Notes under the pieces: generated by a model
Told to the model about the DNA's origin: nothing
Seen by the model: only the letters and a program-made list of their open reading frames with translations
Databases searched by the model: none
Shown: one piece after another, positions 10,129-34,668 of the stretch
Position numbering within the stretch: the stretch's first letter is position 1
How the letters are laid out: each line of letters starts with the position of its first letter
Made by a program: the position numbers and the translations under genes
Source of the DNA: Janibacter limosus
GTDB lineage: Bacteria > Actinomycetota > Actinomycetes > Actinomycetales > Dermatophilaceae
Length of the DNA stretch: 64,000 nucleotides
NCBI RefSeq assembly: GCF_004295485.1
Contig: NZ_CP036164.1
Location: 1-64,000, forward strand
Reading direction: 5' to 3'

Positions 10129-10938
10129 ATGCCCCGGTACATCACGACGACCATCCAGGACGGCATCGCCCACGTGCGTCTCGCCCGACCGGACAAGCTC
10201 AACGCGCTCACGCTCGACATGCTCGACGACCTGGCGGCGGCGGCCCACGGACTCGCCGCTGACCGTCGGCTTCGTGCGGTGGTCGTCTCGGGTGAGGGGG
10301 ACTCCTTCTGCGCCGGCCTCGACTTCGGCTCCGCGATGAAGCAGCCGTCGGCGATCGTGCGCCGCTTCGTCCCCCGCCCCTGGCGTGGCACCAACACCTT
10401 CCAGGAGGCCGCGTGGGGCTTCCGCCGGCTGCCGGTCCCGGTCATCGCCGCGGTGTCGGGCCACTGCCTGGGTGGCGGGCTGCAGATCGCGCTCGCCGCA
10501 GACTTCCGGATCACGCGCCCCGACTCCACGTGGTCGGTCCTTGAGGGCCGCTGGGGCATCATCCCTGACATGTCCGGGGTGCAGGCGCTCTCCGAGCTCG
10601 TCGGGATCGACGTCGCCAAGCGGCTGACGATGACGGCGGACAAGATCTCCGGTGCCCGGGCCCACGAGCTCGGTCTGGCGACCGAGCTCGCCGACGACCC
10701 GGTGGCGGCCGCCTTCGAGCTCGCGGACCAGCTGTCGGCGCGCTCGCCCGACGCACTGGCCGCCACCAAGCGACTCTTCGACGGCACGTGGAACCGCAGC
10801 GCCCGCCACACCTTCGCCCGTGAGCGGTGGGAGCAGCTCCCGCTGCTCTTCGGGCCCAATGCCCGGCGGGCCCGTGAGGCCAATGCTCGACGCGAGGTCC
10901 CCGAGTACCTGCCCAGGGGCCGGAAGATCACCCGATGA
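10129..10938 (+). CDS. Enoyl-CoA hydratase/isomerase (crotonase) family protein
   Basis: A 269-residue crotonase fold protein (MPRYITTTIQDGIAHVRLARP). The oxyanion-hole segments are GEGDSFCAGLDF (about residues 56-67) and SGHCLGGGLQIALAADF (about 110-126), followed by STWSVLEGRWGIIPDMSGV, which holds the acidic active-site positions (a Glu in VLEGR and an Asp in IIPDM). It should hydrate or isomerise an acyl-CoA ester in the cytoplasm, with the exact substrate unknown. The stop codon is the TGA of a CGATGA sequence that now begins IS110 copy 1. Before insertion the next gene (GNAT, 12479) would have overlapped it as ATGA, so the two form an interrupted operon. Confidence 0.9.
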   Translation: MPRYITTTIQDGIAHVRLARPDKLNALTLDMLDDLAAAAHGLAADRRLRAVVVSGEGDSFCAGLDFGSAMKQPSAIVRRFVPRPWRGTNTFQEAAWGFRRLPVPVIAAVSGHCLGGGLQIALAADFRITRPDSTWSVLEGRWGIIPDMSGVQALSELVGIDVAKRLTMTADKISGARAHELGLATELADDPVAAAFELADQLSARSPDALAATKRLFDGTWNRSARHTFARERWEQLPLLFGPNARRAREANARREVPEYLPRGRKITR

Positions 10939-10949
10939 GAAGCCCTGTG

Positions 10950-12215
10950 TCAAGCCGCCTGGTTTTGGGTGGCTCGTCGGTTGGTCAGGACGCGTTGGAG
11001 CGCGTGGTGCTTGTCGGGGTCGTAGGCAGCGTTGTCTTGCCAGCAGTGCCAGATGACGTAGAGCCAGGCGCGGGCGAGGATGCGCACGGCGTGGGCGTGA
11101 TCGTGTCCGCGGGCTCGGGACCGGTCGTAGAGGTCGGCGGCCCAGAGGTTGGCGTGTCGGCTGCCGCCGGCGAAGTCGGTGACGGCGTCGCGCAGTTGCT
11201 TGTCGCAGGCCCAGCGGAAGCCGACGACGCGCATCTTGCCGGATTGTCGGGTCGAGGGCGCGACGCCGGCCAGGCAGGCCAGGGATTCGGGGGTGGGGTA
11301 CTTGGCGCGGCAGTCGCCGATCTCGGCCAGCAGCCGGGCGGCGCGTACGCGTCCGGAGCGGGGCAGGCTGGTGAAGATGTGCCCGTCGGCGTGGGCGTCG
11401 AGCTGGTCGCCGATCTGGCGGCCCAGGATCTTGATCTGCTCGACCAGGGTCGTCAGCAGCGCGATCATCGCGTGGGTGCTGCCGGCCTCGGCGGTGGCCG
11501 CCGGGCCGGTCAGGCCCCTGGGTGCCTGGGTCAGGTGGGCGTGGAGCACGGCAGGGTCGGTGCGGCCGCTGTAGCCGACCGAGGCCAGCCACTTGCCCAG
11601 CCGGGCGGGAGAGAGCCAGTCGGCGCGCTCTTGGGTATCGAAGCGGGCGATGAAGGCCAGGCTGATCTCGGAGTCGAGGTCGGCGAACAGGCCCACCGCG
11701 CCGGGGAAGACGATGCTCAGGTGGGCGCGCAGCTGGTTGGCGGCGGCGACCCGGTGGGCCACGAGGTCCTTGCGGGTGCGGCAGGCGCGGCGCAGCGCCG
11801 TGGTGGCCTGGGTGTCCGGCTCCAGTCGGCGCAGCCGGGCCCGGTCGGTGCGCAGGGTGTCGGCGAGCACGAACGCGTCGAAGCGGTCGTCCTTGTTGCC
11901 GGCCGAGCCGTACCGGCCGCGCAGGTTCTTGACCTGGTTGGGGCTGATCACCACCACCGTCAGTTCGGCCTCGAGGAGGACGTCGATGATCGGCCCGTCG
12001 GGTCGTTCGATGGCGACCTCATCGACGCCGTGCTTGGCCAGGAAGATGACCAGGTCGCGCAGGCCGGTCGTGGTGTGTTCGACCATGACGCGCGCTATTT
12101 CGCGGCCGCGGCCGTCGACGATGCACGCGGCGTGGTCATCCACGGCCCAATCGATGCCGGCCGTGACGTCGTTGAGTGGGGTTTCGGGCAGGGTGGTGCT
12201 GGTGGCAGACTGCAT
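10950..12215 (-). CDS. IS110-family transposase (DEDD recombinase), copy 1
   Basis: The 421-residue enzyme has the two IS110 domains. The N-terminal RuvC-like DEDD domain includes VTAGIDWAVDDHAACIV (first Asp), VDEVAIERPDG (Glu) and KDDRFDAFVLADTLR (Asp pair). A helical linker follows. The C-terminal transposase-20 domain includes FTSLPRSGRVRAARLLAEIG and CLAGVAPSTRQSGKMRVVGF, which carries the catalytic Ser region. It recombines element and target DNA, and in this family is guided by an RNA from the element's noncoding end. GGAGG lies 6-10 bases before the ATG. The protein differs from copy 2 by one residue near the C terminus (Asn here, Ile there). Confidence 0.95.
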   Translation of the reverse strand: MQSATSTTLPETPLNDVTAGIDWAVDDHAACIVDGRGREIARVMVEHTTTGLRDLVIFLAKHGVDEVAIERPDGPIIDVLLEAELTVVVISPNQVKNLRGRYGSAGNKDDRFDAFVLADTLRTDRARLRRLEPDTQATTALRRACRTRKDLVAHRVAAANQLRAHLSIVFPGAVGLFADLDSEISLAFIARFDTQERADWLSPARLGKWLASVGYSGRTDPAVLHAHLTQAPRGLTGPAATAEAGSTHAMIALLTTLVEQIKILGRQIGDQLDAHADGHIFTSLPRSGRVRAARLLAEIGDCRAKYPTPESLACLAGVAPSTRQSGKMRVVGFRWACDKQLRDAVTDFAGGSRHANLWAADLYDRSRARGHDHAHAVRILARAWLYVIWHCWQDNAAYDPDKHHALQRVLTNRRATQNQAA

Positions 12216-12240
12216 GTCAGCCTCCTCGCTGCTAGTCCCA

Positions 12241-12441
12241 GTGGGGAGGCACCCTCATGTGGTGCCGCTGGTGCCGGGACGCAGCTGCCGGTTCGCTCAC
12301 TGATCGGCGCTCGGAGGCGCTCAGCCCTGTCGACGGTCTGCACGTCCCGGGTAACCACCAGACCTCGCAGATCTCATCGTGGACATCCAACGCATCGAGC
12401 GAGCTGGGCGATGGCCTGGTGGCACCTCGGGTGCATCAACG
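12241..12441 (-). ncRNA. Candidate bridge (seek) RNA of IS110 copy 1
   Basis: This mirrors the region described for copy 2 at 26225-26425. The predicted target guides on the RNA strand are GCTCGCT (12398-12404) and CGATGAG (12373-12379). The left guide matches this copy's own left target flank exactly (GCTCG-CT), and the right guide is the exact complement of the right flank (CT-CATCG). The predicted donor guides lie further along the RNA, at about 12323-12330 and 12296-12305. RNA ends are not determinable by eye. Confidence 0.6.
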
Positions 12442-12463
12442 CCCTATCGGAGAACGCTGATAC

Positions 12464-12481
12464 AAGGAAGGTAGACCAGTG
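12464..12481 (+). promoter_or_regulatory. IS-supplied Shine-Dalgarno and GTG start for the GNAT gene
   Basis: AAGGAAGG (12464-12471) lies seven bases before GTG 12479. All of this, including the GT of the start codon, is IS110 sequence, and the same bases precede the ABC ATPase at the other copy. The element replaces the host ATG by GTG and restores a strong ribosome binding site. Confidence 0.75.
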
Positions 12482-13591
12482 AGCGAGCAGGACCCCCGCG
12501 CTGGATTCCTCCCGATCGTCCCCGAGGGATTGCCGCAGGGATGGTCGAGCCGGGCACCCGACGAGGGTGACGTCGCAGACCTCGTCGAGCTCGTCCGCGC
12601 GGAGAAGCTGGCCGTGGTCGGCTCGGGCTCGGTCGACGAGGAGGCCATCGTCAGCCAGGCGGTGGGCGAGGGTGCGTGGACCCGGCGCCAGGTCGTCGTC
12701 CTCGACGAGGACGGACGGCTGCGGGTGTGGGCCCGCGTCCACGACCGGGCCGCCGGCCGCACCAATGTCGACCTCGCCACGGACCCGCAGCTCGATCGCG
12801 ATCAGGAGCAGTACCTCTCGCAGATCCTCCTCGCCTGGGCGGAGCAGGTCGCGTTGAACATCTCCCGCGGGCGTGGCCTGGGTGGCACCCGGCTCGACGT
12901 CTCGGTGCACGAGGCCGACGACCGGCTGCGCTCCATGCTCGAGGGCGCGGGCTACCGGCTCGCGCGTACCTGGTTGCAGATGACGCGGGATCGCCAGCAG
13001 GGCGACGAGGGCCTCGTCGAGGAGCACCGCCGCGAGGGCGTCGTGGTGCGTCGGGTCGCCAAGCGGGAGGACGGCACGCCCGTCGCGGCCGACCTGCAGG
13101 CGGTCTACCGGATGATCGAGGAGTCCTTCGCCGACCACTTCAACTCCTACCGCGAGTCCTTCCCGGAGTTCCTCGCCCGGCTGCGCGAGGCCCCCGGGCA
13201 CCGGTGGGACCACTGGTGGATCGCCGACATCGACGTCGAGGGCCAGTGGGTCCCCGGCGGCGCCGTCGCGGCGCTCGTGCTGCCGGCGGACGACAGCGGC
13301 AGCGAGGGCACCTACATCGACTACATCGGTGTCCACCGCCTGGCGCGGGGGCGAGGTGTCGCCAAGTCGTTGCTGCACACCGTCATCGCCGACACGGCTA
13401 GCCGCGACCGCAACCGCGTCTCCCTCGAGGTCGACGCGGACAGCCCGACCGGCGCCGACGGCCTGTACGAGTCGATGGGGTGGTCCACCCGCTACCGCAC
13501 CGAGTCCTGGCACAAGGACGTGCGCCTCGAGGGGACCGACGACCCTGTGCCGCTGGCCCGCCTGGACGAGCACCCCGGCGACCCCACCTGA
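12479..13591 (+). CDS. GNAT-family N-acetyltransferase, probably tandem-domain
   Basis: A 370-residue protein (MSEQDPRAGFLPIVPEGLPQ). The C-terminal half is a clear GNAT domain: GTYIDYIGVHRLARGRGVAK gives the acetyl-CoA loop, followed by VSLEVDADSPTGADGLYESMGWS. The N-terminal half (VADLVELVRAEKLAV... and EGAGYRLARTWLQM) looks like a second, degenerate GNAT domain, the layout of mycothiol synthase and its relatives, but I cannot assign that function. The start GTG 12479 and its Shine-Dalgarno come from IS110 copy 1. The undisturbed gene most likely began ATG AGC overlapping the crotonase stop. Confidence 0.85.
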   Translation: MSEQDPRAGFLPIVPEGLPQGWSSRAPDEGDVADLVELVRAEKLAVVGSGSVDEEAIVSQAVGEGAWTRRQVVVLDEDGRLRVWARVHDRAAGRTNVDLATDPQLDRDQEQYLSQILLAWAEQVALNISRGRGLGGTRLDVSVHEADDRLRSMLEGAGYRLARTWLQMTRDRQQGDEGLVEEHRREGVVVRRVAKREDGTPVAADLQAVYRMIEESFADHFNSYRESFPEFLARLREAPGHRWDHWWIADIDVEGQWVPGGAVAALVLPADDSGSEGTYIDYIGVHRLARGRGVAKSLLHTVIADTASRDRNRVSLEVDADSPTGADGLYESMGWSTRYRTESWHKDVRLEGTDDPVPLARLDEHPGDPT

Positions 13592-22612: not shown

Positions 22613-25462
22613 TCACTCCGTGCGGCGGGTGAGGTCCGGCGTGCGGCGGATCCCGAGCCCGGCGAGCAGCGCGGCCAGCGCCGGGACGGCGACCAGGACG
22701 ATCGCGAGCGGCAGCCACGGGATGTCGACGATCGCGTCACGGTCGAGCTGCAGGCCGGTGATCGGGTCCCATCCCTCGGAGGTCAGGGCCCGCGCGATCG
22801 TGATGCCGGGGAAGCTCCCGACGAGCGCACCCAGGACGATCCCGATCGTGGCGAGCAGCCAGGTCTGCGAGGCCACCATCAGGCGTCGGGTGCGTCTGCT
22901 GCCCCCGACCGCCGCGATCGTCGCCTGGTCGCGCTCCTGCTCGGCAATGCTCAGCGCCGTGGCGGTGAGGGTGACGACGAGCAGCACGAGGGTGAAGATC
23001 GCGATGAGCACCGCGATGACGAGGGCCAGCGGGTTGCTGAACCCGCGCTCGACGTCGACATAGGTCTCGTCGCCCAGCAGCTGCTGCAGTCGCTCCTGTG
23101 TCGCGGCATCGATCGGGCCGTCGGGGTCGCGCACGAGCTGGGCATCCTGCATCAGTGGCCACCCGGCCTCCTGGGCGACCTCGGTGGGCAGGACCAGACC
23201 CGCCTGCCAGGAGCGCGCCAAGGTGTCCTTGGACCGGTCGCGGACGACCACCGGGACCCGGCTCGTGGAGGTGGTCCCCGCCAGCTCGGACACGCCAGTG
23301 TTGTCGTCGATCGTCAGCGTCCCCCGGGCGATCGCGACCCGACCCTCGGACACGATGCCCTGGGGCTTGCCGGCAACGAGCACGCCACCGCCATCGGTGA
23401 CGGTGCGGGCCTCGTCCCCCGTGAGGTCGAAGCGACGGACGATCTCCGCGGCGGGCATGAAGGAGATCGTCGACGTCACCGGGATGGAGCCGGACCCGGT
23501 GCTGAGGTCGAGGCACGGGTTACCGGAGCCCTCCTCGGGCGCCAGCTCGACATCGCCCTGGGGCGCCAGGTCGGGGCTCACGACGTCCTTGACGGTGCAG
23601 CCCCTGGGCAGCGTGGTGACGAAGGGCTCGGCGGGGATGTCCGACGCGGGGGGCGGGTCCTCGAAGGGCTGCCCGTAGGAATGCACGGGGGTGATGACGA
23701 GCTCGGGCAGCTCGCGGGCTGCTCGGTCGACGGGGTCCTGTCGCTGCGTGGCCCCGCCCGCGTACATGTAGCCCTCCCCGGAGAGCGTCTGCGGGAGGTA
23801 GTCCAGCCGCTGCTGGGTGTTGTCGCTGCTGGCCCCGATGAGACCCATCGTCAGGGCTGCGGACCCGGCGAGCACGGCGGCGACGGTCGGCGCGCTGCGC
23901 GTGCGGTGCCGCGCCAGGTCGCGCACGGCGAGGCGAAGGGGGAGGGGCAGCGGTCCCGCGAGACCTCCGAGCGCGTGCAGGATCCTGGGGACCAGGAGGA
24001 GCGTGCCGAGCACGAGCAGGATGGCCGCGAGGGCGATGACGTACTCGGTGCGATCGAGGCCGATGATGACGCCGGCGCCACCGACTGCGGCGAGGACCAG
24101 ACCGAGGACGAAGAGCCAGCGGGAGGGCGGCGGGGTGACGACGCGCCCTCGCATCGCCCCGACGATGTCGAGCTTGGTGAGCCGCTGTGCCGGGACGAGC
24201 GCGGCGAGGATCGCGGCGACCAGGGCGATCGCGCAGATCGCGGCGAGCTGCCACCACGGCACCTCGAAGGGCCCCAGCGGTGACCCACGGTCGGCGATGA
24301 CCCGGAGGACGATCCAGCCGATCGGCACCGCGACGACGGCCCCGACGAGCGCGCTCAGCCCGCCGAGGACGATCGCCTGCGCCAGCACCGTGCGCCGCAG
24401 CTGACCGGCGGTCGCGCCGTTGCTCGCAGCGAGGGCGAGCGTGCGTCGCTGCCGGGTGGCGCCGACGGCGAAGGCCGGCCCGACGAGGAGGGCGATGACG
24501 ATGAGCAGGAGGGTGGCTCCGAGGGCGACGAGCTGGGCCGTGTCGCTGGTGCTCGAGCCCATCTCGCGCAGCTCGGGGTCGATCTGGTCCTGGGTCGGTG
24601 GGTGGGTCACCACGTAGGCGCTGTGGACGGCCAGGCCGTACTCGTTGAGCCGGGTGACGTCCGCCCAGGTGACGGGCCGGTCGCCCATGAGGAACCAGCC
24701 GCTGCTGCGCGAGTCGTCGACCATCGCGTCGGGCGTCGTCGTGAGGAGCTCGTGGCTGGCTCCCCAGCCCTGGAGGGACAGGGCCGTGCCGACGACCTGG
24801 ACGGTGCGCTCGCCACCGTCGACCAGCAGCTGCAGCGACCCGCTGTCGGGGACGCCTCGTCGCACGGCCGAGGGGGAGACGAGCACCTCGTCCGCACCGG
24901 TCGGCCAGCGGCCGGAGCGCAGGGTCACCTTGCCCGTGAGGCGGCTGGGCTCGGCGACGGCGAGGGTGTCGAGCCCGAGGTCACGATCACCGATGCGGGC
25001 CCGGGTACGGCCCGTGGTCCACGGGAGGGCCTCGCCGCCGGTGAGCTCGCCGATGGCGGCGGCATTCATCTCGACAGTGCCTCCCGGGCGGGACCCGGGG
25101 ACCTCGCGAGCCGCAGCCTCCTTGATGCTGAACCCGTTCTCGGGGTTGGCCGCCTGCGCGATCCGGTGGCCGTCGCCCGCCGTGATCGAGGCCTGCGCGG
25201 GCCCCATGGCCAGCGGGACCGACTCCTCCGGCGAGATCGAGCTGGTCGCGCCGACGACGAGCCCGAGGCAGATGAGCATCGTCGGCACGCCGACCATGAG
25301 CAGCACGGCGAAAGAGCGGCCCCGGTGGCGGCGCACGTCCCGTCGCGCCAGTCGCAGGGCAACCCGCCACGAGGCGAGCCAGGCCGATCCTCGCGATGAC
25401 GAAGGGGGTGACGCCGGTGGTGTCCCCCCTGCGGACACCACCGGCGTGGTCTGGGTGGTCAT
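22613..25462 (-). CDS. ABC transporter permease, FtsX/MacB-type with duplicated core
   Basis: A 949-residue membrane protein. A first helix (SFAVLLMVGVPTMLICLGLV) is followed by an external domain. The first FtsX core has helices near LVALGATLLLIVIALLVGPA, the conserved RRTLALAASNGATAGQLRRT loop and WWQLAAICAIALVAAILAAL. A second external domain precedes the C-terminal FtsX core, which has LALVIAVLIAIFTLVLLVVT, QATIAAVGGSRRTRRLMVAS and final helices. ATG 25462 overlaps the ATPase stop as ATGA. With that ATPase it forms a MacB/LolCDE-like mechanotransmission or export system of unknown cargo, and PadR (28321) was the original head of the operon. Confidence 0.9.
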   Translation of the reverse strand: MTTQTTPVVSAGGTPPASPPSSSRGSAWLASWRVALRLARRDVRRHRGRSFAVLLMVGVPTMLICLGLVVGATSSISPEESVPLAMGPAQASITAGDGHRIAQAANPENGFSIKEAAAREVPGSRPGGTVEMNAAAIGELTGGEALPWTTGRTRARIGDRDLGLDTLAVAEPSRLTGKVTLRSGRWPTGADEVLVSPSAVRRGVPDSGSLQLLVDGGERTVQVVGTALSLQGWGASHELLTTTPDAMVDDSRSSGWFLMGDRPVTWADVTRLNEYGLAVHSAYVVTHPPTQDQIDPELREMGSSTSDTAQLVALGATLLLIVIALLVGPAFAVGATRQRRTLALAASNGATAGQLRRTVLAQAIVLGGLSALVGAVVAVPIGWIVLRVIADRGSPLGPFEVPWWQLAAICAIALVAAILAALVPAQRLTKLDIVGAMRGRVVTPPPSRWLFVLGLVLAAVGGAGVIIGLDRTEYVIALAAILLVLGTLLLVPRILHALGGLAGPLPLPLRLAVRDLARHRTRSAPTVAAVLAGSAALTMGLIGASSDNTQQRLDYLPQTLSGEGYMYAGGATQRQDPVDRAARELPELVITPVHSYGQPFEDPPPASDIPAEPFVTTLPRGCTVKDVVSPDLAPQGDVELAPEEGSGNPCLDLSTGSGSIPVTSTISFMPAAEIVRRFDLTGDEARTVTDGGGVLVAGKPQGIVSEGRVAIARGTLTIDDNTGVSELAGTTSTSRVPVVVRDRSKDTLARSWQAGLVLPTEVAQEAGWPLMQDAQLVRDPDGPIDAATQERLQQLLGDETYVDVERGFSNPLALVIAVLIAIFTLVLLVVTLTATALSIAEQERDQATIAAVGGSRRTRRLMVASQTWLLATIGIVLGALVGSFPGITIARALTSEGWDPITGLQLDRDAIVDIPWLPLAIVLVAVPALAALLAGLGIRRTPDLTRRTE

Positions 25463-26187
25463 CGGACCTGCTCGGTCTCGAGCAGGTCCTCGGCGTCCGA
25501 GGGGTCACCGGTGGTGTCGACGACGATGCCGTCGCGCAGGAAGACGACCCGGTCGGCCCATGCCGCGTGCCGTGCCTCGTGGGTGACGAGCAGGCCGCCG
25601 GTCCCGGCGTCGCAGCGCTCGCGGAGCACGCGCAGCACCTCCTCACCCGTGTGGGTGTCGAGGGCGCCGGTGGGCTCGTCGGCGAGGACGAGCCGGCGAC
25701 CGCCGACGAGTGCCCGGGCGAAGGCGACCCGCTGCTGCTGGCCACCGGACAGCTGGTCGGGGTATCGGTCGACGAGGTCGGCCAGCCCCATCAGCTCGAG
25801 CGACTCGACGGCGGAGCGTCGCGCCGCACGCACCCGCTGGCCGTCGAGCTCGAGCGGCAGCGCCACGTTCTCTGCGGCGGTGAGGGCCGGGATCAGGTTG
25901 TAGTCCTGGAAGACGAAGCCGACGTGGCGCCGCCTCAGCGCCGCGAGCTCACGGGGGGTGAGGGAGTTGATCTCCTGCCCCTCGATGACCACGCGGCCGG
26001 ACGTGGCCCGGTCGAGGCCACCAGCGAGGTTGAGCAGCGTCGACTTGCCCGAGCCGCTCGGGCCCATGACCGCGACGAGCTCGCCGGGGTGCACGCTCAG
26101 GCTGACGCCCGCGAGCGCGGGGACCGACGTCGCCCCCTCGCCGTGGATCCGGGTGACGTCCTCGAGGAGCAGGCAGGGCGCGCTCAC
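25459..26187 (-). CDS. ABC transporter ATP-binding protein (LolD/MacB type)
   Basis: A 242-residue ATPase with Walker A VMGPSGSGKSTLLNLAGGLD, Q-loop FVFQDYNLIPALTAAENV, signature LSGGQQQRVAFARALV, Walker B RLVLADEPTGALD and H-loop LLVTHEARHA. It powers the FtsX-type permease encoded immediately downstream (ATGA overlap). Its GTG start and AAGGAAGG Shine-Dalgarno are furnished by IS110 copy 2. In the uninterrupted operon the gene would have started ATG AGC, overlapping the padR stop. PadR-ATPase-permease is a common operon order, which supports this reconstruction. Confidence 0.93.
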   Translation of the reverse strand: MSAPCLLLEDVTRIHGEGATSVPALAGVSLSVHPGELVAVMGPSGSGKSTLLNLAGGLDRATSGRVVIEGQEINSLTPRELAALRRRHVGFVFQDYNLIPALTAAENVALPLELDGQRVRAARRSAVESLELMGLADLVDRYPDQLSGGQQQRVAFARALVGGRRLVLADEPTGALDTHTGEEVLRVLRERCDAGTGGLLVTHEARHAAWADRVVFLRDGIVVDTTGDPSDAEDLLETEQVR

Positions 26188-26202
26188 TGGTCTACCTTCC
26201 TT
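26185..26202 (-). promoter_or_regulatory. IS-supplied Shine-Dalgarno and GTG start for the ABC ATPase
   Basis: On the reverse strand AAGGAAGG (26195-26202) lies seven bases before GTG 26187. It is identical to the arrangement at 12464-12481, although the two downstream genes are unrelated. The shared part is IS sequence up to the G of the start codon. Confidence 0.75.
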
Positions 26203-26224
26203 GTATCAGCGTTCTCCGATAGGG

Positions 26225-26425
26225 CGTTGATGCACCCGAGGTGCCACCAGGCCATCGCCCAGCTCGCTCGATGCGTTGGATGTCCACGATGAGATCTGCG
26301 AGGTCTGGTGGTTACCCGGGACGTGCAGACCGTCGACAGGGCTGAGCGCCTCCGAGCGCCGATCAGTGAGCGAACCGGCAGCTGCGTCCCGGCACCAGCG
26401 GCACCACATGAGGGTGCCTCCCCAC
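26225..26425 (+). ncRNA. Candidate bridge (seek) RNA of IS110 copy 2
   Basis: The noncoding left end shows two guide-bearing loops. The target loop is enclosed by the stem CCACCAG (26244-26250)/CTGGTGG (26305-26311) and holds GCTCGCT (26262-26268) and CGATGAG (26287-26293). These equal the left target half plus core and the complement of core plus right half of the target GCTCG-CT-CATCG. The donor loop is flanked by GCAG/CTGC (26325-26328 and 26382-26385). It holds ACAGGGCT (26336-26343), which matches the right element end, and GATCAGTGAG (26361-26370), which is 9 of 10 complementary to the left end CTCACTGGTC. A further hairpin, GGCACC/GGTGCC, ends at 26418 before the transposase ribosome site. 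Confidence 0.65.
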
Positions 26426-26450
26426 TGGGACTAGCAGCGAGGAGGCTGAC

Positions 26451-27716
26451 ATGCAGTCTGCCACCAGCACCACCCTGCCCGAAACCCCACTCAACGACGT
26501 CACGGCCGGCATCGATTGGGCCGTGGATGACCACGCCGCGTGCATCGTCGACGGCCGCGGCCGCGAAATAGCGCGCGTCATGGTCGAACACACCACGACC
26601 GGCCTGCGCGACCTGGTCATCTTCCTGGCCAAGCACGGCGTCGATGAGGTCGCCATCGAACGACCCGACGGGCCGATCATCGACGTCCTCCTCGAGGCCG
26701 AACTGACGGTGGTGGTGATCAGCCCCAACCAGGTCAAGAACCTGCGCGGCCGGTACGGCTCGGCCGGCAACAAGGACGACCGCTTCGACGCGTTCGTGCT
26801 CGCCGACACCCTGCGCACCGACCGGGCCCGGCTGCGCCGACTGGAGCCGGACACCCAGGCCACCACGGCGCTGCGCCGCGCCTGCCGCACCCGCAAGGAC
26901 CTCGTGGCCCACCGGGTCGCCGCCGCCAACCAGCTGCGCGCCCACCTGAGCATCGTCTTCCCCGGCGCGGTGGGCCTGTTCGCCGACCTCGACTCCGAGA
27001 TCAGCCTGGCCTTCATCGCCCGCTTCGATACCCAAGAGCGCGCCGACTGGCTCTCTCCCGCCCGGCTGGGCAAGTGGCTGGCCTCGGTCGGCTACAGCGG
27101 CCGCACCGACCCTGCCGTGCTCCACGCCCACCTGACCCAGGCACCCAGGGGCCTGACCGGCCCGGCGGCCACCGCCGAGGCCGGCAGCACCCACGCGATG
27201 ATCGCGCTGCTGACGACCCTGGTCGAGCAGATCAAGATCCTGGGCCGCCAGATCGGCGACCAGCTCGACGCCCACGCCGACGGGCACATCTTCACCAGCC
27301 TGCCCCGCTCCGGACGCGTACGCGCCGCCCGGCTGCTGGCCGAGATCGGCGACTGCCGCGCCAAGTACCCCACCCCCGAATCCCTGGCCTGCCTGGCCGG
27401 CGTCGCGCCCTCGACCCGACAATCCGGCAAGATGCGCGTCGTCGGCTTCCGCTGGGCCTGCGACAAGCAACTGCGCGACGCCGTCACCGACTTCGCCGGC
27501 GGCAGCCGACACGCCAACCTCTGGGCCGCCGACCTCTACGACCGGTCCCGAGCCCGCGGACACGATCACGCCCACGCCGTGCGCATCCTCGCCCGCGCCT
27601 GGCTCTACGTCATCTGGCACTGCTGGCAAGACAACGCTGCCTACGACCCCGACAAGCACCACGCGCTCCAACGCGTCCTGACCATCCGACGAGCCACCCA
27701 AAACCAGGCGGCTTGA
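26451..27716 (+). CDS. IS110-family transposase (DEDD recombinase), copy 2
   Basis: This is the second copy of the 421-residue recombinase, intact, with the same DEDD and C-terminal Ser-domain motifs as copy 1. It ends ...RVLTIRRATQNQAA, where copy 1 has Asn in place of Ile. GGAGG at 26441-26445 precedes ATG 26451. Its product should act on either copy, since ends and guides are the same. Confidence 0.95.
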   Translation: MQSATSTTLPETPLNDVTAGIDWAVDDHAACIVDGRGREIARVMVEHTTTGLRDLVIFLAKHGVDEVAIERPDGPIIDVLLEAELTVVVISPNQVKNLRGRYGSAGNKDDRFDAFVLADTLRTDRARLRRLEPDTQATTALRRACRTRKDLVAHRVAAANQLRAHLSIVFPGAVGLFADLDSEISLAFIARFDTQERADWLSPARLGKWLASVGYSGRTDPAVLHAHLTQAPRGLTGPAATAEAGSTHAMIALLTTLVEQIKILGRQIGDQLDAHADGHIFTSLPRSGRVRAARLLAEIGDCRAKYPTPESLACLAGVAPSTRQSGKMRVVGFRWACDKQLRDAVTDFAGGSRHANLWAADLYDRSRARGHDHAHAVRILARAWLYVIWHCWQDNAAYDPDKHHALQRVLTIRRATQNQAA

Positions 27717-27727
27717 CACAGGGCTTC

Positions 27728-28321
27728 TCATCGCCGCACCTGCGTCCGGTCGGGGGTGCTCGTCCGGGCGTCCGCGGTGGCGGCCCGCCGGGGGAGCGAG
27801 GAGTAGCGCGCGAGCGTGGACTCGACGTGGTCGAGCCACCGGACCTCGGCTTCTGAGGTGAAGATGAGGTTGTCGAGCACGAGCAGCCACGCGAGGTCGG
27901 TCTCGGTCTCGGTCGCCGCCGACCGCTTGAGCTTCGTCAGGTCCCGCAGGTGGCGCAGGGTGGCGGTCCGCTGGGTCTGGACGACCCTGGTGACGTCCAC
28001 ACCGACGGCGGTGACCGACAGGGCCAGCTTGATGACCAGCTCGTCCCGCGGGGTGCTGCTCCGGTCGACCGGTGTCAGCCACCAGCCGTCGACCTCGGCG
28101 CGGCCGGCCGTGGTGAGGGCGTAGGCGATCCTCCCTTCGCCATCGGGCCCGCCGGTCTGCGTGACGAGACCGTCCCGCTCGAGGCGGGTCAGGGTCGTGT
28201 AGACCTGTCCGATGTTGAGCGGCCACGTCCCGCCCGTGCGTGCCTCGAACTCTGCGCGCAGCTGCGCGCCGTACATGTTGTCCTCCGCCAGCAGCGCAAG
28301 GATCCCCAGTCGGACCGACAT
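27728..28321 (-). CDS. PadR-family transcriptional regulator
   Basis: A 197-residue protein. The N-terminal winged helix is typical PadR: MSVRLGILALLAEDNMYGAQ, FEARTGGTWPLNIGQVYTTL and RLERDGLVTQ. The C-terminal part (LRHLRDLTKLKRSAATETET... LDNLIFTSEAEVRWLDHVES) is the helical dimerisation domain. AGGAGGGG gives a strong ribosome site. PadR proteins usually repress an adjacent efflux operon and themselves. Two ATAC-N3-GTAT dyads lie in the shared upstream region with the divergent ABC operon. The stop TGA 27728-27730 is part of the CGATGA at which IS110 copy 2 inserted, which separates it from the ATPase-permease pair. Confidence 0.92.
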   Translation of the reverse strand: MSVRLGILALLAEDNMYGAQLRAEFEARTGGTWPLNIGQVYTTLTRLERDGLVTQTGGPDGEGRIAYALTTAGRAEVDGWWLTPVDRSSTPRDELVIKLALSVTAVGVDVTRVVQTQRTATLRHLRDLTKLKRSAATETETDLAWLLVLDNLIFTSEAEVRWLDHVESTLARYSSLPRRAATADARTSTPDRTQVRR

Positions 28322-34359: not shown

Positions 34360-34493
34360 GTTGCCCACAGCGGACCTGCCCTTCGCGTAGATGCGGTGGA
34401 CGAGGAGCTCGCCCACCCGGTGCGTGGACAACATTGCCACAGGAGCGCCGGGCCCGAGGCTCCGCTGCCGACGGCGCTATGCTGGACGGGCAC

Positions 34494-34577
34494 GACAGGG
34501 GAGCGCAGCAGCGCTGAGAGTGCGGGTGACCGCAGACCCTCGTACCTGATCCGGCTCGCACCGGCGTAGGGAGTCGA
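34494..34577 (+). promoter_or_regulatory. TPP riboswitch (THI element)
   Basis: The leader contains the THI-box parts in order: AGGGGAGCGCAGC, GCGCTGAGAGTGCG, ACCGCAGACCCTCGTACCTG and ATCCGGCTCGCACCGGCGTA followed by GGGAGTC. The CTGAGA and ACCTGATC segments are the conserved TPP-binding internal loops. It lies 92 bases before the ykoE start, so thiamine pyrophosphate should shut off the transporter operon. Confidence 0.93.
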
Positions 34578-34668
34578 GTCTCAGGACCTGATCGTCGATG
34601 GCCAGACGTCAGCGTCCGGTCGCGACGGCAGGCCCTCCCTGTGGGTACCGACACAGGAGAAGCACCAC

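Follow-up and report, generated by a model that had tools for sequence, protein, structure and literature searches.

A predicted RNA-guided IS110 element at operon stop/start overlaps in Janibacter limosus, with features that may make it transparent to translation

The first 64,000 nucleotides of the Janibacter limosus contig NZ_CP036164.1 (the window) hold two copies of an IS110 element in opposite orientations. Copy 2 (1544 bp) lies on the forward strand at 26183–27726, a span that includes the left core CT and ends ahead of the right one at 27727–27728; copy 1 lies on the reverse strand at 10940–12483, with its right core at 10938–10939. There are six copies genome-wide (own1 to own6, copies 1 and 2 being own5 and own6), each with zero to two differences from the window copy over 1500 compared bases, and for own1, own4 and own6 the element boundaries fit CGATGAG sites that stand uninterrupted in congeners. 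The element carries a full-length DEDD recombinase gene (26451–27716, forward strand, 421 amino acids) with both the RuvC-like DEDD domain (Pfam DEDD_Tnp_IS110, E = 7.9e-35) and Transposase_20 (E = 4.9e-15). Its product matches the NCBIfam model NF033542 for IS110 family RNA-guided transposases at 163 bits (cut-off 140); a sequence search of the PDB returned no relative. As in the IS110 group, the left end (268 bp, 26183–26450) is longer than the right end (10 bp, 27717–27726) and holds the predicted RNA. On the right side all six copies read ACAGGGCTT-CT-CATCG, followed by C in five of them, and on the left the bases preceding CT-CACTGG vary among the six.

The preliminary description of this DNA had read the left end as a bridge RNA, and re-reading the coordinates bears out the layout that it gave. 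Specifically, the left target guide GCTCGCT (26262–26268) and the right target guide CGATGAG (26287–26293), both on the forward strand, lie 18 nucleotides apart inside a CCACCAG/CTGGTGG stem (26244–26250 and 26305–26311) that encloses both. The matches it had counted are also found: the left guide fits its target at 7/7 positions for copy 1 and 6/7 for copy 2, and the right guide at 7/7 for both. The right guide matches 7/7 in own1 to own4 too, and left-guide matches from own1 to own6 are 5, 3, 4, 5, 7 and 6 of 7, all read from an alignment that scores eight letters on the left side. A second pair, which the same description had matched to the element's own ends, holds up as well. The left donor guide ACAGGGCT (26336–26343, forward strand) fits the right end that precedes CT-CATCG, and the right donor guide GATCAGTGAG (26361–26370, forward strand) is complementary at 9/10 positions to the left end CTCACTGGTC, whose full complement is GACCAGTGAG.

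Covariance folding of the left end with relatives gives this layout a structural frame. The predicted bridge RNA was folded as the segment 26227–26402 (forward strand; the coordinates are those of the folded segment) over 24 relatives, and the consensus has 41 pairs, 20 of them with two-sided changes; 97.9% of its paired cells are pairs, against 90.1% in shuffled controls and 33.5 to 40.0% in slid ones. A long stem closes an internal loop that holds the left and right target guides, and the donor guides lie in a second arm. The fold is supported because of this covariation and not by the single-sequence folding energy, which is not unusual (z = -1.03 against shuffles); the segment has no Rfam match up to E = 1. 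At gathering thresholds Rfam matches the window just once, with a TPP riboswitch at 34487–34589.

The elements used to relate guides to targets come from 80 loci, the top-scoring part of 95, and from searches of 186, 396 and 394 genomes, which mostly gave elements already in that set; 14 duplicates were removed. Of the 80 loci, six without a recognisable left end and eleven without a right end were left out. The right guide equals the element's own target at 330/345 non-core positions (0.96, against 0.66 when permuted; z = 16), counted at five non-core positions in each of the 69 elements whose right junction could be read, the six own copies being entered as one. When each distinct guide (19) is represented by a single element, the match is 92% against 53% permuted. 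Rare targets are followed by their guides at 7/7 (GGACGAG in L056, CCCTGAG in L037, CTCTGAG in L024), and the poorest fits are those of L069 (4/7) and L084 (5/7). For the left guide the match is 49%, against 39% permuted (78 elements), and 51% against 33% over 31 distinct guides, figures that are lowered because some rows are cut out of register in the alignment: those of the convergent-stop clade described below and of L037, L061, L063, L091 and L107 score 0–2 of 8. On the donor side, the left donor guide has one variable base (C or T), which equals the right-end base in 69 of the 69 elements parsed, out of 70 with a right end; the 9/10 fit of the right donor guide refers to the window element alone, as its covariation was not cleanly parsed (at least three rows mis-hit) and that result is unused. 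This guide–target covariation, together with RNA structure conserved among relatives, supports the reading that the left end encodes a bridge-type RNA, which would be expressed from the element.

All six copies sit at CT-CATCG, which in the operon direction is CGATGAG; in CG-ATG-AG, an ATG and a TGA have two bases in common. The preliminary description took this to be a stop codon overlapping the next gene's ATG. To read the flanks we used a codon model that was seeded with six hand-chosen genes, trained on the window and applied to other genera also; it is right in 165/193 windows of its own training genes. By this model all six copies lie at a start codon, as would be expected of an element like IS900, which Doran is said to have reported in 1997 to target translation initiation signals, facilitating expression of hed. 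Both flanks are in overlap frames in five of six copies, for which the overlap reading stands; own3 shows the downstream start alone. Pfam identifies the genes on both sides of own1 (ArsR, then an E1-E2 ATPase below the curated cut-off in a partial protein), own2 (PLP decarboxylase, then GNAT) and own6 (PadR, then ABC transporter), and on one side of own4 (dynamin-like GTPase downstream) and own5 (enoyl-CoA hydratase, ECH_1, upstream; the downstream ORF, MSEQ..., has no match); the ORF downstream of own3 has no Pfam match. At one right junction an independent annotation is available, and there the predicted TGA is exactly where the annotated CDS, that of a VWA-like gene, stops.

The same junction type recurs among the relatives. 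Of 86 rows, in which the own copies count six times, 67 have a guide that spells ATGAG or GTGAG. Both flanks are in the overlap frame at 28 of 50 ATGAG/GTGAG sites (23/44 without own copies), and the remaining sites have neither flank in frame (10), the downstream flank only (7) or the upstream flank only (5). At other targets both flanks are in frame in 1/18, the exception being L033 (GACTGAG), perhaps with a CTG start. L033, L085 and L182 share the target GACTGAG, guide-matched in all three, which is a TGA without an ATG or GTG overlap, and all three have stops in the antisense frame; in the Nonomuraea element L182, which is outside the counts, that frame is open for 408 of 508 codons and the downstream frame closes at once.

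The earlier claim that the guide is tuned to stop/start overlaps gains from these flank frames and from uninterrupted junctions in congeners at four of the six sites, and it also needs correction. Aligning the flanks of the six copies confirms a shared CT-CATCG core in 6/6 and guides that track targets, but the left flanks differ strongly despite identical guides; the fixed part of the target is its right half, CGATGAG. Orthologous uninterrupted junctions were found for own1, own4, own5 and own6, with the exact target word for three of them: CGATGAG is present in five of six loci for own1, seven of eight for own4 and 2/2 for own6, and in none of eight for own5, where sequences such as CGATGAC, TTGAG and GTGAG stand instead. 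No orthologous site of own3 was found among the congener loci. For own2 the flanks correspond to two neighbouring CGATGAG junctions of one operon in G060 and G062; the J. limosus genome has no match to the gene that these junctions enclose there, as if two element copies had recombined and deleted the intervening gene. Comparison of own2 (L008, 3082300–3084900) with L138, L180 and L181 likewise derives its left and right flanks from adjacent ATGA junctions; the operon is of a siderophore type by our own naming. A dispersed repeat of about 40 bases starting GGCCCTTCGAGACG occurs at the end of the gene upstream of own2 and at many places in G000, G058 and G066, and is found across several genomes of the genus.

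The preliminary description, correct as to the overlap at most copies, missed a larger point: the element's ends and its antisense frame together restore a stop/start overlap on both sides. In copy 2 the upstream PadR gene (27728–28321, with PadR and Vir_act_alpha_C domains in frame) retains its TGA stop at 27728–27730 on the reverse strand. From the retained ATG, an antisense frame of 515 codons (26184–27731, reverse strand) runs across the full element to a TGA in overlap with a GTG that belongs to the element (26185–26187, reverse strand). This GTG replaces the ATG of the downstream gene (25459–26187, ABC_tran), and it is preceded in the left end by a ribosome-binding-like AAGGAAGG (26195–26202, reverse strand; anti-SD duplex energy -9.7, calculated, like all such energies here, with what we take to be the 16S tail). 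Read outward, the left end is AAGGAAGGTAGACCA-GTG-AG, and in all six copies the downstream frame starts with GTG instead of ATG. In copy 1 the equivalent frame (10935–12482, forward strand) lies between the enoyl-CoA hydratase gene and the ORF MSEQ... The 515-codon frame contains no stop, against 15 and 8 in the other two antisense frames, and like that of IS900 hed it spans the element from a host start. It is in register with the recombinase codons. Because the registers coincide, the frame stays open over the recombinase gene as long as that gene has no TTA, CTA or TCA codon, and openness there is thus largely expected in GC-rich genes. The notable part of the openness is the noncoding left end.

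This openness follows the class of target. Among 70 elements with both ends, a complete open in-frame antisense frame is present in 37 of 51 with ATGAG/GTGAG targets and in 0 of 19 with other targets, ten of which belong to one clade (Fisher 1.3e-8). The 37 open-frame elements have 22 distinct total lengths, from 1322 to 1586; several of the 14 incomplete ones among the 51 seem to have been truncated, frameshifted or interrupted. Left-end length is in register in 56/63 elements whose guides spell ATGAG or GTGAG, a count that has the own copies six times, with 22 distinct in-register lengths; fifteen elements, the whole convergent clade of ten among them, have no frame anchor for this count, and of the anchored elements with other guides 3/8 are in register and 3/8 are without left-end stops. 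Where guides spell ATGAG or GTGAG, the left ends hold 14 antisense stops in this frame versus 113 and 172 in the other frames. In 29 disjoint close pairs, differences that create a stop in the same antisense frame number 39 versus 58.7 +/- 7.6 expected; for the other frames the figures are 70 versus 76.6 and 55 versus 62.9. Left-end length differences are divisible by 3 in 13/18 disjoint pairs (p = 8.5e-4), and individual gap lengths, which are mixed modulo 3 (30, 23 and 17), lend no support on their own. The mean anti-SD energy is -10.2 where the guide spells RTGAG (n = 58, window element included) and -2.3 in the convergent-stop clade (n = 10), in which L076 is an exception at -9.7.

That clade comprises ten elements (L070, L074–L081 and L084) with support of 100/100, in a tree that has the own row out of frame, leaves out L113 and L096, and shows long branches for L085, L086 and L091. 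Its guides are of the type GGCTGACC and GGCTGAG, and in all nine cases with both flanks the element lies between two convergent genes: the first base of the left TGA is 5 to 9 bases ahead of the core, and the right stop begins one base inside it. Lengths in the clade are mixed modulo 3 and the antisense frame is closed. In phylogenetically independent pairs (from a tree without L096 that has the own row in frame and keeps the long branches), target type and open frame shift in the same direction in about 4.8 of 8 and in no case in opposite directions (median p 0.0625); without the convergent clade the figures are 4.4 of 7 and 0.125. This outcome of the pair test is suggestive, not decisive.

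We propose that this is an RNA-guided, translationally transparent IS110 element that targets operon stop/start overlaps, a reading to which we give a probability of roughly 0.7. Its guide would have evolved to recognise a TGA stop overlapping an ATG or GTG start within operons. Transposition directed by the bridge RNA would duplicate the AG/CT core alone and leave both the upstream stop and the ATG overlapping it in place. A ribosome finishing the upstream gene could then restart on the retained ATG, read the stop-free frame antisense to the recombinase gene and stop at the TGA that overlaps the element's GTG, behind the AAGGAAGG site; the downstream gene would be read next, its start merely changed from ATG to GTG. 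Neither gene would be broken and little polarity is predicted, and this low cost to the host may be the selective cause.

On a rival account, survival is all that lies behind the enrichment at junctions: the element inserts wherever its guide matches, insertions inside genes disappear, and GC-rich codon usage together with a conserved RNA leaves the frame open incidentally. The genome (G000) contains 1709 occurrences of CGATGAG versus 153 of the word read backwards, and 27 of 37 sampled background words are antisense inside genes. None of the 37 other CGATGAG words of the window (the two occupied places excluded) is at an overlap, nor is any of 30 CGATGAGCGAG sites that match at 11 bases and carry no element (the genome has 39 such words), eight of which are start codons without overlap. 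Because guide-matching unoccupied sites are overlaps in 0/30 cases, the guide alone does not pick overlaps; the right guide is insufficient for the junction preference, which again tempers the earlier claim of tuning, and post-insertion survival or an additional preference must contribute to it. The phylogenetic pair test, not being significant, is compatible with survival too. However, survival leaves unexplained a total length kept in register over 22 lengths, the depletion of stops in one antisense frame, the predominance of ATGAG/GTGAG guides and the weak mean ribosome-like site of the convergent-stop clade. As the whole explanation we regard it as rather unlikely; it may contribute to the enrichment at junctions.

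Alternatively, the antisense frame could encode a functional protein like IS900 hed, with the choice of target serving its expression. IS900 is reported to target translation initiation signals to express hed (from the part of PMC8141618 consulted), and in the Janibacter element too the frame runs from end to end and begins on a start codon of the host. But the 515-codon frame has no Pfam match up to E = 0.1, and left-end differences carry no codon periodicity in the antisense frame (0.142, 0.136 and 0.124 at positions 1–3; 22 disjoint pairs, p = 0.21), albeit in a region that overlaps the RNA. Because periodicity is absent, openness and register, not protein sequence, seem to be what is kept. 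Moreover, a protein-only model has no need of a GTG and a ribosome-like site for the downstream gene. We consider an encoded protein quite improbable. Chance resemblance, in which the left end is no bridge RNA and its matches are coincidental, could point to the ordinary single-sequence fold and the lack of an Rfam match, but is contradicted by the guide–target covariation and the two-sided changes in 20 pairs, and is scarcely tenable.

Returning to the transparent, RNA-guided element that we favour, we lean towards a broader reading in which the guides of IS110 elements in Actinomycetota evolve to a gene-boundary grammar, with stop/start overlaps in one grade and convergent stops in a derived clade, and in which a pass-through frame in the overlap-targeting elements keeps the host operon translated and all but hides the element, its openness and not a protein being selected. 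In evolutionary terms, natural bridge-RNA guides would then be selected for gene-boundary signals, the places where an insertion is least costly. One short region would have three overlapping functions, as guide RNA, antisense ribosome path and start signal for a host gene. If pass-through works, nature has here a module for non-polar insertion into operons, which also hints at how programmable insertions could be placed inside them.

Among the titles and abstract beginnings searched, with most subscription papers and preprints outside the scope, none was found to describe translational transparency, and the comparison with known systems is as follows. IS621 and the IS110 group have a bridge RNA in the left end with a target loop and then a donor loop; the Janibacter element has in common with IS621 the DEDD recombinase, the left-end RNA, the loop order, the core dinucleotide in the guides and a core at both ends, as far as the excerpted text of PMC11208160 describes them. 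Unlike the Janibacter element, IS621 inserts into REP elements, and that excerpt contains no stop/start-overlap targeting or pass-through frame (PMC11208160). The seekRNA of IS1111/IS110 elements is also a noncoding-region RNA with two segments that match the target, and the portion of PMC11187229 consulted contains no gene-boundary targeting. Termination-reinitiation at ATGA and TGATG overlaps is known for native gene pairs (in the sections of PMC6728339 and PMC10666635 consulted); reinitiation at such overlaps would be shared, but here a mobile element rebuilds the overlap. There is also a likeness to IS900, another IS110 family element that targets initiation signals and has an antisense frame, hed, running across the whole element without a start of its own; its length, printed as 1451 bp, likewise leaves a remainder of 2 when divided by 3, by our own arithmetic (PMC8141618, in part). 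On its other strand the printed IS900 target CATGNNNNNNTCTCCTT is a ribosome site plus an ATG; it is no TGA/ATG overlap, and the same part of that paper describes no new start or site given to the downstream gene (PMC8141618). The motif CATGNNNNNNTCTCCTT is present in none of the six reconstructed Janibacter sites, where the target is CGATGAG. The Janibacter element and its relatives thus differ from IS900 in the overlap as target, the start supplied to the downstream gene, and a class of target that is tied to an in-register open frame.
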